A stretch of DNA of 64,000 nt from Micromonospora gifhornensis (GTDB lineage: Bacteria > Actinomycetota > Actinomycetes > Mycobacteriales > Micromonosporaceae): contig NZ_BOPA01000010.1 of assembly GCF_016863515.1 (NCBI RefSeq), forward strand, positions 124,001-188,000, in the 5' to 3' direction. The position numbers were made by a program, and so were the translations under genes. The notes under the pieces were generated by a model that was given only the letters and a program-made list of their open reading frames with translations, made no database searches and was not told where the DNA came from. Positions 251 to 14,543 of this stretch are shown here, one piece after another; position 1 is the first letter of the stretch, and the number at the start of each line of letters is the position of its first letter.

Positions 251-279
251 GAGACATCGGTGCCTGAGCGTGTTACCCT
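251..279 (+). promoter_or_regulatory. predicted carD promoter
   Basis: GAGACA (251-256) and TACCCT (274-279) are separated by 17 bp, a reasonable match to a housekeeping sigma-70-type promoter of actinomycetes. An AAAGGGG ribosome site follows about 11 nt before the carD ATG. This is pattern matching only. Confidence 0.4.
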
Positions 280-3600: not shown

Positions 3601-4764
3601 TCAGCGGCGGGACCAGGTCCAGGCGTAGGCGTCGTCCTCGCAGTCGGCTGCCGCGTCGCACAGGTCGAGCGGGCGGAAGGTGTCGACCATGACGGCCAAC
3701 TCGTCGAAGAAGTCGACACCGATCGAGCGTTCCGCGGCACCGGGCTGGGGGCCGTGGGTGAAGCCGGACGGGTGCAGCGAGATGGAACCCTGCTCGATGC
3801 CGGAACCGCGTCGCGCCTCGTAGTTGCCGCCGGTGTAGAAGAGCATCTCGTCGGAGTCGACATTGTGGTGGTGGTACGGCACCGGGATGGCGTCCGGGTG
3901 GTAGTCGACCTTGCGGGGGACGAACGAGCAGATCACGAAGTTCGGGCCCTGGAAGGTCTGGTGCACCGGTGGCGGCTGGTGGATCCGGCCGGTGATCGGC
4001 TCGAAGTCGTGGATGGAGAAGGCCCACGGGTACATGTGACCGTCCCAGCCGACCACGTCGAACGGGTGGTTGGCGTAGACGTGGCGGGTCCAACCGCGCC
4101 GGTGGCGTACCAGCACCTCGACGTCGGTGCCGTCGACCAGCAGCGGCGCGTCCGGTCCCCGGACGTCCCGCTCGCAGTACGGCGAGTGTTCCAGGAACTG
4201 GCCGCGCACCGAGAGGTAGCGCTTGGGTGGGCCGATGTGGCCGGTCGCCTCGACGGCCAGCAGCCGGGTCGGCGTGTCCCCGGTGGGCACCAACCGGTGC
4301 ACCGTCGAGGTCGGAATGATCACGTAGTCGCCGGCCACCGCGTCCAGTACGCCGAAGGTCGACTCGACCCGCAGGGTGCCCGCCTCGACGTACAGGCAGT
4401 GGTCGCCGGTGGCGTCGCGGAACAGCGGGGACGGCCGGTCGGCGAGCACGTAGGCGATGCGTACGTCGTCGTTGGCGAGCAGGTAACGCCGACCCAGGAT
4501 GGGGTCGGCCCCGGTGCCGTCGAGCTTGTGGGTGCGCAGGTGCCGGGGCTTGAGCGGCAGGTTGGGCACCCGGGTCACGGCCGGCGGGGTGAACTCCTCG
4601 GCGGCGACGATCGCGGTCGGGGCGTACCGGTGGTAGAGCAGGGACGAGTCGGAGGAGAAGCCCTCCTGGCCCATCAACTCCTCGGTGTAGAGGCTGCCGT
4701 CGGGCTGCCGGAACTGGGTGTGGCGCTTGCGCGGCAGTTCGCCGACGCTGCGGTAGTACGGCAT
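3601..4764 (-). CDS. hmgA: homogentisate 1,2-dioxygenase
   Basis: This 387-residue Fe(II) enzyme opens the ring of homogentisate to maleylacetoacetate in tyrosine and phenylalanine breakdown. Iron-ligand blocks are visible: HHHNVDSDEMLFYTGG (His and Glu ligands) and SLHPSGFTHGPQPG (third His). It is close to the short bacterial form of the family. It is transcribed divergently from the 4849 gene and fahA; a 19-bp perfect palindrome lies between them. The repeat element follows its stop codon. Confidence 0.93.
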   Translation of the reverse strand: MPYYRSVGELPRKRHTQFRQPDGSLYTEELMGQEGFSSDSSLLYHRYAPTAIVAAEEFTPPAVTRVPNLPLKPRHLRTHKLDGTGADPILGRRYLLANDDVRIAYVLADRPSPLFRDATGDHCLYVEAGTLRVESTFGVLDAVAGDYVIIPTSTVHRLVPTGDTPTRLLAVEATGHIGPPKRYLSVRGQFLEHSPYCERDVRGPDAPLLVDGTDVEVLVRHRRGWTRHVYANHPFDVVGWDGHMYPWAFSIHDFEPITGRIHQPPPVHQTFQGPNFVICSFVPRKVDYHPDAIPVPYHHHNVDSDEMLFYTGGNYEARRGSGIEQGSISLHPSGFTHGPQPGAAERSIGVDFFDELAVMVDTFRPLDLCDAAADCEDDAYAWTWSRR

Positions 4765-4789: not shown

Positions 4790-4808
4790 GCGTCCGATTA
4801 TCGGACGC
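4790..4808. promoter_or_regulatory. 19-bp perfect palindrome, probable operator between hmgA and fahA units
   Basis: GCGTCCGATTATCGGACGC is a perfect palindrome around a central T. It sits in the 84-bp divergent promoter region, 26 bp upstream of the hmgA ATG and 41 bp upstream of the GTG at 4849. Length and symmetry suit a dimeric regulator (TetR, IclR or GntR type). No such regulator gene is adjacent. Confidence 0.65.
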
Positions 4809-4848: not shown

Positions 4849-5715
4849 GTGTCAACGCAGCTGCCCGCACTCGTCGCCGGCCTGGTCGACGACGCCGCCG
4901 TCTTCCCGCCGGGCAGCGCGTCGCTGCCCGACGCCGTCGCCGCCCACCGGCGACACCGCGCCGACTGGTACGCCGACCTCGTCGGCCCGCTGCTGCTGCC
5001 CGCCTCCAAGGTCGCGGCGGGCGAACTGAGCGGGCTGGTCGACCCGGCCGAGGGCTTCGTGATCGGGCTGATCGGCGACATCGGCCTCGACCGGCTGCCC
5101 TTCGCCCTGTCGTTCCTGCCGCCGCTCGGAGTGGCCGTCCGGCAGCTGGAGGCCCCGGTCGCCAAGCGGGGTGAGGACCCGCAGCCCGGCCTGGCCGAGC
5201 TGATCAACCTCACCGAGCGGCTGGACACCGTCGCCGTCTTCGCGGAGATCCCGTTGACGTTCGGCCTGACCGCCGCCCTGGACACGCTGGCCGAGGCGCG
5301 CTCCCGTGGGCTGTCGGTCGCCGCCAAGTTCCGTACCGGTGGGTTGGCCGCCGAGCTGTTCCCCACGCCCGCCGAGCTGGCCGCGGTCATCTGCGCCTGC
5401 CGGGACCGGCAGCTGCCGTTCAAGCTGACCGCCGGGTTGCACCACGCGGTGCGCCACCTCGACCCGGAAACCGGCATCACCCATCACGGCTTCGCCAACG
5501 TGCTGGCCGCGACGCTGGCCGCCGCCGAGGGCGCTGCGGTGGGGACGGTGACCGAGCTGCTCACCGTCCGCGACGAGCGACCCCTGGTGCAGCAGATCGA
5601 GGGCCGGCACGACCTGGCGCGTCCGCTGTGGATGGGCTTCGGCTCGTGCAGCATCGTGGAACCACTTACCGATCTGATCCGGCTGGGGCTGGTGAACGGG
5701 AGAAATCAGGCATGA
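4849..5715 (+). CDS. conserved protein of unknown function in homogentisate cluster
   Basis: This 288-residue protein starts at GTG 4849 and overlaps the fahA ATG by 4 nt, so it is translationally coupled to fumarylacetoacetase. I recognise no enzyme family. Alternating beta/alpha character and the blocks AAKFRTGG, LPFKLTAGLHHAVRH and FGSCSIVEP suggest a TIM-barrel-like fold with conserved Lys, Arg and His residues; this is an impression, not a domain match. It occupies the place where a maleylacetoacetate isomerase would be expected, and no glutathione- or mycothiol-dependent isomerase is visible in the window. A role in that step is inference only. Confidence 0.8.
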   Translation: MSTQLPALVAGLVDDAAVFPPGSASLPDAVAAHRRHRADWYADLVGPLLLPASKVAAGELSGLVDPAEGFVIGLIGDIGLDRLPFALSFLPPLGVAVRQLEAPVAKRGEDPQPGLAELINLTERLDTVAVFAEIPLTFGLTAALDTLAEARSRGLSVAAKFRTGGLAAELFPTPAELAAVICACRDRQLPFKLTAGLHHAVRHLDPETGITHHGFANVLAATLAAAEGAAVGTVTELLTVRDERPLVQQIEGRHDLARPLWMGFGSCSIVEPLTDLIRLGLVNGRNQA

Positions 5716-6920
5716 GCGAGCGAGTGAGCTGGGTGGCGGGCGCGGAAGGGTCCGGTTTCGGCATCCAGCACCTGCCGTACGGGGTGTTCCGGGTCGGCGA
5801 CGGGGAACCGCGCATCGGCGTACGCATCGCCGACGTGGTCCTGGACCTGGCCGCCGCGGAGGACGCCGGTCTGGTGCTGGCCGGCGGGGCGCTGCGCCGG
5901 CCGACGCTCAACACGTTCCTGGCGCTGGGTCGTCCGCAGTGGACCGCGGTGCGGCAGCGGATCACCGAACTGCTCACCGACCCGGCCCACCGGGTCGCCG
6001 TGGAGCCGCTGCTGGTGCCGCTGGAGCAGGTACGGATGGAACTGCCCATCGAGGTCGCCGACTACGTGGACTTCTACTCCTCGGAGCAGCATGCCTCGAA
6101 CGTCGGCCAGATCTTCCGACCCGGCCAGCCGGCGCTGCTGCCCAACTGGAAGCACCTGCCGATCGGCTACCACGGGAGGGCCGGCACCGTGGTGGTCTCC
6201 GGCACCCCGGTGGTACGCCCGCAGGGCCAGCGGCCGAGCAAGGACGGGCCGGTCTTCGGCCCGTCGGTACGCCTCGACATCGAGGCCGAGGTCGGGTTCG
6301 TGGTCGGCGTACCCAGTCCGCTCGGCGCCCGGGTGGCCGCCGCCGACTTCGACGAGCACGTCTTCGGTGTGGTGCTGGTCAACGACTGGTCGGCCCGGGA
6401 CATCCAGGCGTGGGAGTACCAGCCGCTGGGCCCGTTCCTGGGCAAGTCGTTCGCCACCTCGATCGCCGCCTGGGTGACCCCGCTGGACGCGCTGCGGAGC
6501 GCGTACGTGGCCGCGCCGGAGCAGGATCCGTCGGTCCTGGAATACCTGCGCGACGAGCCGCACGTCGGGCTGGACCTGCGGTTGACCGTGCAGTGGAACG
6601 GCGAGACGGTAAGCGAGCCGCCGTTCGCCGGGATGTACTGGACGCCGGCCCAGCAGTTGGCCCACCTGACCGTCAACGGCGCCTCACTGCGTACCGGTGA
6701 CCTCTACGCTTCCGGCACCGTCTCCGGTGACCGGCGTGACCAGGTCGGCTCCTTCCTGGAACTCACCTGGGGCGGCGCCGAGCCGGTGACCGTGGGCGGG
6801 GCGGAACGCACGTTCCTGCTCGACGGCGACACCGTCACCATCACGGCCACCGCACCCGGACCGGACGGCTCCACCATCACGTTGGCCGAGGTTACGGGGA
6901 TGATCGCGCCAGCCCGCTGA
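5712..6920 (+). CDS. fahA: fumarylacetoacetase
   Basis: This 402-residue hydrolase splits fumarylacetoacetate into fumarate and acetoacetate, the last step of homogentisate breakdown. Family blocks are present: YVDFYSSEQHASNVG, the Glu-containing DIEAEVGFVVG, and VLVNDWSARDIQAWEYQPLGPFLGKSF with the metal-binding Asp and catalytic Lys. Start ATG 5712 was chosen because it overlaps the upstream stop (ATGA) and gives the standard N-terminal domain; an earlier in-frame start would add 28 unrelated residues. Confidence 0.95.
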   Translation: MSERVSWVAGAEGSGFGIQHLPYGVFRVGDGEPRIGVRIADVVLDLAAAEDAGLVLAGGALRRPTLNTFLALGRPQWTAVRQRITELLTDPAHRVAVEPLLVPLEQVRMELPIEVADYVDFYSSEQHASNVGQIFRPGQPALLPNWKHLPIGYHGRAGTVVVSGTPVVRPQGQRPSKDGPVFGPSVRLDIEAEVGFVVGVPSPLGARVAAADFDEHVFGVVLVNDWSARDIQAWEYQPLGPFLGKSFATSIAAWVTPLDALRSAYVAAPEQDPSVLEYLRDEPHVGLDLRLTVQWNGETVSEPPFAGMYWTPAQQLAHLTVNGASLRTGDLYASGTVSGDRRDQVGSFLELTWGGAEPVTVGGAERTFLLDGDTVTITATAPGPDGSTITLAEVTGMIAPAR

Positions 6921-11668: not shown

Positions 11669-12973
<1,305 letters not shown>

Positions 12974-13556: not shown

Positions 13557-14543
13557 TCAGTCGGCGACCAGCGCGTCACCGAGCGGAGTGCGCCGGTAGC
13601 GCACGGCCCGACCGGTGCGGATCCGGCTGACCAGCCCGGCCTCCCGCAGGACCGTGAGGTGGTCGCCGACACCGCCGAGGCTGAGCCCGAGTTGAGCGAC
13701 GAGTTGGCTGGTGGTGGCGGGCAGGGCGAGCGCCCGCAGCACCGCCGCCCGCGAGCGGCCGACCAGCCGATCCAGGGCGTCGTCGGGCCGGGCCGGGTCG
13801 GGCGGCCCGAGCAACTCGGCCACCCCGGAGGCCCGGTAGACGATCGCGTACGGCCAGGGCTGCTCGACGTACGCGATCAGGGTGCCGAAGACGGTGGGCA
13901 CGAAGAGCAGGCCCCGACCGGCCAGCGAGTGGGTGTCGGGGTCGTTGCTGTCGATCTCGATGACGCCGACGTCACCGGGGATCCAGCGCAGCCGGGGATC
14001 CAGGTCGGCGACGGCCGCACCCCAGCCGTAGGCGAGCAGGCGACCCGCCCGACGGACCAGGTCGCGCTCCAGGATCGCGCGCAGACGCGGCCAGTCCGGC
14101 TCGACAAGCGCCTGCCAGGCCGCCTCGATGGCGTCCGCGATCAGGTCGACCACGTTCGGCGCAGCGTAGATCCGGCGGGCGTACGCCGGTGGGGTGGCCC
14201 GGGGCCCGGCGAGGTTGCGGGCCAGCTCGTCGCGGGCCTGCGCCAACGGGGTGGCCCGGACCACGGCCAGTTCGCCGTGGAAGTCCCGGGCCGTGCCGTC
14301 CGGCGGAGGCTGGATGAAGTCGGCGTTGTAGCCGCCGCGACGCAGCAGCGCCAGTAGCGCCCCGACCGCCGGCACCTCCCGGCGCAGCCGCTCGTACGCG
14401 GGCCGGGTCCGGGCCACCCACGGCCCCAGCCCGTCGGAGGCCCGTTGACCGGCGTGCAGCCGCAACGCGGACACCGTCTCGCCCAGCGGAGAGACGGCGT
14501 ACCGACTGGCGGCCACGTCGGCCGGGGTGACCTCGATCCGCAT
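13557..14543 (-). CDS. ArsR-like winged-helix transcriptional regulator with DUF5937-type N-terminus
   Basis: This 328-residue protein has a long N-terminal region without catalytic motifs and a C-terminal ArsR-type winged helix at about residues 265-325: TSQLVAQLGLSLGGVGDHLTVLREAGLVSRIRTGRAVRYRRTPLG. The arrangement matches the large ArsR-like regulators of actinomycetes. It diverges from an MFS transporter gene with a perfect inverted repeat between them, so it most likely represses itself and the exporter. The ligand is unknown. Confidence 0.85.
   Translation of the reverse strand: MRIEVTPADVAASRYAVSPLGETVSALRLHAGQRASDGLGPWVARTRPAYERLRREVPAVGALLALLRRGGYNADFIQPPPDGTARDFHGELAVVRATPLAQARDELARNLAGPRATPPAYARRIYAAPNVVDLIADAIEAAWQALVEPDWPRLRAILERDLVRRAGRLLAYGWGAAVADLDPRLRWIPGDVGVIEIDSNDPDTHSLAGRGLLFVPTVFGTLIAYVEQPWPYAIVYRASGVAELLGPPDPARPDDALDRLVGRSRAAVLRALALPATTSQLVAQLGLSLGGVGDHLTVLREAGLVSRIRTGRAVRYRRTPLGDALVAD

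Follow-up and report, generated by a model that had tools for sequence, protein, structure and literature searches.

The window, which is the whole 64-kb stretch of DNA that was analysed, carries genes of the homogentisate pathway, and their features are collected in Table 1. One of these genes, given together with its protein the working name MID, lies between fahA, which it overlaps by 4 nt (ATGA, 5712-5715), and a divergent hmgA, from which it is separated by a gap of 84 bp. Between hmgA and fahA there is room for no gene besides MID. An earlier sequence-only reading of this DNA had described a 288-residue gene between hmgA and fahA with a 4-nt overlap, and the ORF coordinates confirm it. 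That the ORF is a real gene is shown by its conservation at this position across many genomes. MID is single-copy in its own genome, where the sole other match is unconvincing (E 0.45).

Isomerisation of maleylacetoacetate is a textbook step of the pathway, for which the cluster otherwise holds no gene. The same reading had stated that a GST-type MaiA or a mycothiol-dependent isomerase is missing from the cluster; this agrees with the space between hmgA and fahA, into which only MID fits, and with a whole-genome search using the maiA model TIGR01262 (E<=1e-5), which returned no match. The domain MDMPI_N (PF11716) has ten matches elsewhere in the genome, two of which are overlapping places on one contig, and these ten could include another isomerase. 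The HmgA of the window reaches only 48.6 bits against TIGR01015, with a cut-off of 510.75. An HmgA resembling this low-scoring type adjoins fahA in many genomes. The identity of hppD, which encodes an earlier step of the same pathway as hmgA and fahA, was also taken from plasmid-cluster relatives annotated hppD.

Table 1. Features of the locus in window coordinates; the predicted strands are given in MID residues.
Feature	Position	Strand	Description
hmgA-like homogentisate 1,2-dioxygenase gene, distant subfamily	3601-4764	-	Pfam HgmA_C and HgmA_N above cut-offs
Candidate operator	4790-4808		Perfect 9-bp inverted repeat with 1-base spacer, GCGTCCGAT T ATCGGACGC; in the hmgA-MID gap, front of cluster
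MID	4849-5715	+	GTG start, 288 codons, 288 aa; predicted aldolase-like TIM barrel, candidate maleylacetoacetate isomerase
Lys160 codon	5326-5328	+	Strand 6 (157-162); 97/99; proposed Schiff-base lysine
Lys192 codon	5422-5424	+	Strand 7 (191-194); 98/99; proposed pKa-lowering lysine
Cys267 codon	5647-5649	+	Just after strand 8 (261-266); 97/99; proposed internal thiol
MID predicted strands 1-8	residues 13-15, 45-51, 70-75, 95-103, 129-133, 157-162, 191-194, 261-266		AlphaFold2
fahA, fumarylacetoacetase	5712-6920	+	TIGR01266, 433.9 bits against a cut-off of 375.3
hppD, 4-hydroxyphenylpyruvate dioxygenase	11669-12955	-	Pfam Glyoxalase and Glyoxalase_5 (HPPD N-terminal) domains

Gene company and the candidate operator

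Scanning of 84,980 species genomes gave at least 553 confirmed stretches of the MID family, from which the best 80 were retained by score and not at random. Nearly all of these 80 belong to the Actinomycetota by title, and they include MAGs labelled Eremiobacterota (L076) and Acidobacteria (L093). The survey of gene neighbourhoods, which had been suggested with the sequence-only reading, places fahA next downstream of MID, on the same strand and within 800 bp, in 73 of the 80 best relatives, and hmgA nearby in 68 (36 on the same strand and 32 on the opposite one). In L044, hmgA sits between MID and fahA. Six loci have no fahA near MID (L031, L055, L062, L074, L087, and L092); in all of these genomes, and in G279 from the phylum sample described below, FahA is found above its cut-off elsewhere in the genome (7/7). 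MID and FahA form one ORF in a Sphaerisporangium MAG (L026, 7059-9173), which could also reflect a lost stop or an assembly error. In two Streptomyces, an ORF lies beside the unlinked MID copies (L062, 10859-11878, and L087, 10859-12154, both on the minus strand). By eye, and perhaps by chance, its N-terminal stretch resembles an ArsR/DUF5937-type protein encoded near hppD in the window (13557-14543, minus strand), the only protein of this comparison to which the domain scan was applied.

MID is also carried by plasmids, with 24 records at E<=1e-3 distributed over Streptomyces (11), Priestia (6), Pseudonocardia (2), Rhodococcus (2), Nonomuraea (1), Kovacikia (1), and Tsukamurella (1). In Priestia (Bacillota) the order is hppD-MID-fahA-hisC-hmgA, plus a permease, where hisC encodes an aminotransferase. 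On the plasmid of Tsukamurella tyrosinosolvens the order is hppD-hmgA-MID-fahA, with 4-nt overlaps on either side of MID. In the cyanobacterium Kovacikia all four genes are present, and MID-fahA points away from hppD and hmgA. FahA itself was found in 119 plasmid records (E<=1e-40), many of them from Pseudomonadota (Paracoccus 16, Sphingobium 14, Acinetobacter 8, and others), a phylum absent from the 24 MID plasmid records. Six Pseudomonadota regions were opened: maiA lies within 4 kb of fahA in three, and the other three have no maiA in the stretch examined, for which the gene table is incomplete. The public annotation of MID is hypothetical protein in all five annotated plasmid regions opened.

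The inverted repeat in the hmgA-MID gap is a candidate operator. An equally good repeat was obtained in 8 of 20,000 shuffles of the 84-bp gap, and the site is the only one with at most two mismatches in the window. In 41 of the 80 loci (22/30 divergent, 18/37 co-directional, and 1/13 others), a site of this quality occupies the gap or immediately precedes the first gene, against a background of 13 operator-like sites in the remaining 1,440,360 bases of these loci; the 41 loci are not independent, because the pattern was taken from the window itself and closely related loci have a common origin. In co-directional operons the operator precedes hmgA, which puts MID inside the regulated unit. Outside the window, the genome holds four places with one or two mismatches, on contigs C32, C22, C11, and C19. 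The one-mismatch site on C32 lies inside a reading frame resembling a short-chain dehydrogenase and was taken for chance.

Family, predicted fold, and conserved residues

The MID protein has no family match in Pfam, NCBIfam (E<=1), or PHROGs. Searches of PDB sequences gave a best E of 1.7 with MID alone and of 0.37 with a profile of 14 relatives, and none of these hits is credible. Pfam scans of 14 relatives returned three unrelated families in one member each (best E 0.088), and NCBIfam scans of 36 relatives returned six unrelated families, again in one member each, the best being an aspartate dehydrogenase model (E 0.0006). The MDMPI_N domain is absent from MID and the 14 relatives in Pfam, no GST domain was found in MID or the relatives scanned with Pfam and NCBIfam, MID does not belong to TIGR01262, and the DeoC models of Pfam and NCBIfam match neither MID nor the scanned relatives. 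MID is a conserved family outside the named families of Pfam, NCBIfam, PHROGs, and PDB sequences. It shares 67-74% identity with three Micromonospora proteins and one Salinispora protein, which makes Micromonospora or a close relative the probable source. Nothing describing the MID family or a glutathione-free maleylacetoacetate isomerase was found in the open full-text literature.

The AlphaFold2 model of MID, built from 43 sequences, has eight strands, a pLDDT of 95.3, and a pTM of 0.92. A second model, of the distant member L076 (36 sequences), has a pLDDT of 92.4 and a pTM of 0.91. Foldseek against the PDB gave 1406 matches at E<=10 and none at E<=0.001, and the candidates were aligned with VIA-align. 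For the MID model, rows 1-29 are deoxyribose-phosphate aldolases (DERA) or DERA-derived proteins (best Z 14.3, rmsd 3.8, 216 residues aligned), and the last of them (Z 12.6) rank level with what follows, homocitrate synthase at 12.2. For the L076 model, DERA or DERA-derived proteins take up rows 1-47 (best Z 16.4, rmsd 3.5, 228 aligned), with DERA rows at 14.2 and more and pyruvate kinase following at 13.2. These counts include the KE70 designs, QR15, EC1535, 1jcj, and a Thermus aldolase, which we take to be DERA or DERA-derived, though their titles are silent on this. As modelled, MID is a TIM barrel whose nearest structures are the deoxyribose-phosphate aldolases, with no sign of a GST fold, both models being confident eight-strand barrels.

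The hhalign comparison of MID with DERA profiles (17 of 30 DERA loci) was not significant (probability 0.4), and the segment of strands 6 and 7 reached a probability of 8.3. When this segment was aligned pairwise, the two lysines were matched together in just 108 of 731 sequence pairs, though the mean score for 15 of the 43 rows exceeded that of shuffles (14.6 against 12.0, sd 0.7). No sequence homology to DERA is claimed, because the profile comparison failed, and from these results the kinship with aldolases is drawn from the predicted fold.

Conservation was counted in a set of 99 proteins that contains near-copies. All 99 have Asp14 and Arg162; Lys192 is present in 98, and Lys160, His198, and Cys267 in 97. 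In the model, strand 6 also carries Arg162, strand 7 Thr194, and strand 4 Glu101, and strand 5 ends with Glu133; the lysines of strands 6 and 7 and the cysteine after strand 8 hold in both models. Lys160 is lost in two proteins, L015 (genome G057) and L175 (G258), both of which also lack His198 and Cys267, and L175 lacks Lys192 in addition. Both genes still precede fahA and look like decaying copies. Genome G247, which has the same genus label as G258, shows a marginal MID match only, far from its fahA.

Co-occurrence with FahA in Actinomycetota

Co-occurrence was studied in 296 genomes of the phylum Actinomycetota. FahA is present in 34 of them (E<=1e-40), 29 of which are above the curated cut-off. 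MaiA is above its cut-off in none of the 296, and weaker GST-like matches occur in 41. MID was detected in 18 genomes (E<=0.01), or 16 after dropping two marginal matches (G247 and G021, E 0.001 and 0.006), in a first pass that scored at most eight candidates per genome and may miss very weak copies. Fifteen of the 16 MID genomes have FahA, always above the cut-off, and in 14 MID is adjacent to fahA; in the exception, G269, whose assembly consists of about 590 contigs, the MID match sits at the end of a contig. The association of MID with FahA has a Fisher p of 4.4e-15, uncorrected for the relatedness of genomes.

FahA occurs in the absence of MID in 19 of the 34 genomes (14 of the 29 above the FahA cut-off), G247 being counted among the 19, and none of these has MaiA above its cut-off. 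Eight of the 19 share one genus (label f4 g7), which is probably Streptomyces, as they stand beside a Streptomyces on the FahA tree. Locus L158 (G235) has hmgA and fahA together with no room between them, and its genome shares a genus label with the MID-bearing G050. The FahA tree comprises 65 rows, 46 with MID, selected among many, and all 19 without it. MID presence requires 10 changes on this tree (at least 9 by well-supported branches) against a mean of 16.8 in shuffles, of which 0 or 1 of 500 were as low. MID presence is thus clustered, yet it has been gained or lost many times. Both the 19 genomes and the approximately 10 gains or losses imply that MID is dispensable for organisms with the pathway. 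In FahA genomes without MID, the isomerisation may be carried out by mycothiol chemistry, by MDMPI enzymes, or by FahA itself.

Proposed function and competing explanations

The open full-text literature gave no answer to how maleylacetoacetate is isomerised in glutathione-free bacteria. The MID family is widespread and unnamed and has a clear candidate active site, which makes the question testable, and a function for MID would name hundreds of hypothetical proteins, given at least 553 confirmed stretches. A proteome study of Rhodococcus globerulus reported HmgA and HmgB on phenylalanine and 2-hydroxyphenylacetate, and the passages of it considered here do not mention detection of HmgC (PMC11889516).

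Because of its adjacency to fahA and hmgA, the common operator, and co-occurrence, MID almost certainly belongs to the homogentisate (tyrosine) pathway or regulon, which is where a gene for the isomerase would be expected. On balance, the view that MID is the maleylacetoacetate cis-trans isomerase of bacteria without a glutathione-dependent MaiA is slightly favoured. The sequence-only reading had already proposed that MID does this isomerisation; the lines of evidence above add membership of the pathway, and the activity itself, with its substrate and reaction and the lysine iminium and cysteine chemistry, is what we infer. The same reading had left the choice between a thiol-free and a mycothiol-dependent mechanism. 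A mechanism free of a thiol cofactor fits the barrel, the two lysines, and the cysteine better, and the mycothiol half of the proposal fits less well, since members are found in Priestia and in a cyanobacterium too, neither of which is known to make mycothiol.

The zeta-class GST isomerase (MaiA/HmgC, TIGR01262) serves the same step as is proposed for MID, next to the same neighbours, hmgA and fahA. It has a GST fold and uses glutathione, whereas MID is a predicted TIM barrel without a match to TIGR01262. In zeta GST catalysis the thiol is added at C2, rotation about C2-C3 follows, and the thiol is then expelled. Zeta GSTs isomerise maleylacetoacetate when glutathione is present, according to passages of PMC10950700.

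The closest structural comparison is with DERA (DeoC, TIGR00126). Its residues Lys167, Lys201, and Asp102 lie on strands 6, 7, and 4, and in MID, whose predicted fold is alike, strands 6 and 7 also carry lysines and strand 4 an acidic residue. The correspondence of residues between MID and DERA is deduced from strand order, since sequence profiles failed to align the two families. In E. coli DERA, Lys167 forms the Schiff base, Lys201 lowers its pKa, and Asp102 takes part in a proton relay, as described in parts of PMC6016325. The same parts describe a side reaction that resembles the chemistry proposed for MID, in which the Lys167-bound enal is attacked by Cys47 in a Michael addition, leading to an inactivation that is partly reversed by heat (PMC6016325). 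DERA has also been evolved into a Michael-addition catalyst acting through an iminium (passages of PMC9400869). Unlike MID, DERA has different gene company and, by our reading of the sequences, a G-x-S motif where MID has a cysteine at the end of strand 8; it lacks the stretch of helices that MID has between strands 7 and 8, and there is no detectable sequence homology between the two.

A conserved cysteine at the end of strand 8 of a DERA-like barrel suggests that lysine activation and an internal thiol could replace the cofactor of MaiA, which would be the most economical hypothesis for the residues. More tentatively, MID might represent a class of cofactor-free isomerases with an aldolase-type barrel, in which a lysine iminium is combined with reversible Michael addition of the enzyme's own cysteine. 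In such a mechanism, Lys160, its pKa lowered by Lys192, would react with the C4 ketone of maleylacetoacetate to give an iminium, the carboxylates being held by Arg162, His198, and other conserved residues. Reversible attack of the Cys267 thiolate on C2 of the activated double bond would be followed by rotation about C2-C3 and departure of the thiol. Hydrolysis would release fumarylacetoacetate to FahA. If this is true, MID would show in nature the iminium catalysis that has been engineered into DERA, and would use productively what in DERA is a suicide side reaction.

Maleate isomerase, a member of the Asp/Glu racemase superfamily, catalyses a cofactor-free cis-trans isomerisation by means of an active-site cysteine. 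It would be alike in its working, and has a fold different from that predicted for MID, two cysteines, and no known lysine iminium.

A different role in the same pathway is rather unlikely. MID might tautomerise fumaryl- or maleylacetoacetate or clear a cyclised, thiol-adducted, or reduced side product, with isomerisation being spontaneous or thiol-driven. This would suit the 19 of 34 FahA genomes that manage without MID, and a glutathione-dependent non-enzymatic bypass reported in mice points the same way (title of Fernandez-Canon 2002, as cited in PMC10970868). Such a bypass would help explain the FahA genomes without MID if mycothiol acted alike. Against this role, the isomerase alone is otherwise missing from the compact tyrosine clusters of Priestia and Tsukamurella, and the conserved pocket residues suit the main substrate equally well.

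An isomerase that depends on mycothiol or another low-molecular-weight thiol as cofactor, with Cys267 in a structural role, is improbable. Most of the best 80 loci belong to the Actinomycetota, which make mycothiol, and the mycothiol-dependent maleylpyruvate isomerase (MDMPI, PF11716) is an actinobacterial answer to a similar cis-trans isomerisation. MID, however, is a predicted TIM barrel with neither an MDMPI nor a GST domain, and it occurs also in bacteria not known to make mycothiol, namely Priestia and a cyanobacterium. These have other thiols, and 97 of the 99 proteins retain Cys267.

Little probability is given to a metal-dependent lyase or hydrolase that would share work with FahA and bind a metal through Asp14, Glu101, Glu133, and His198. 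These acidic and histidine residues are conserved, and the structure list for the MID model also holds metal-dependent barrels, homocitrate synthase among them, with a best Z of 12.2, level with the weakest DERA rows at 12.6. The best DERA row is nevertheless 2.1 Z higher for the MID model, homocitrate synthase is absent from the 50 rows listed for L076, where DERA or DERA-derived proteins fill rows 1-47, and the two lysines and arginine on strands 6 and 7 would suit Schiff-base chemistry better.

A non-catalytic role for MID, as partner or stabiliser of FahA, would agree with the adjacency of fahA in 73 of 80 loci and the one fusion, but is very improbable, as MID stands apart from fahA in the six genomes named above and in G279 and its conserved polar residues lie at or near the C-terminal ends of the barrel strands, where the active site of a TIM barrel is usually found.
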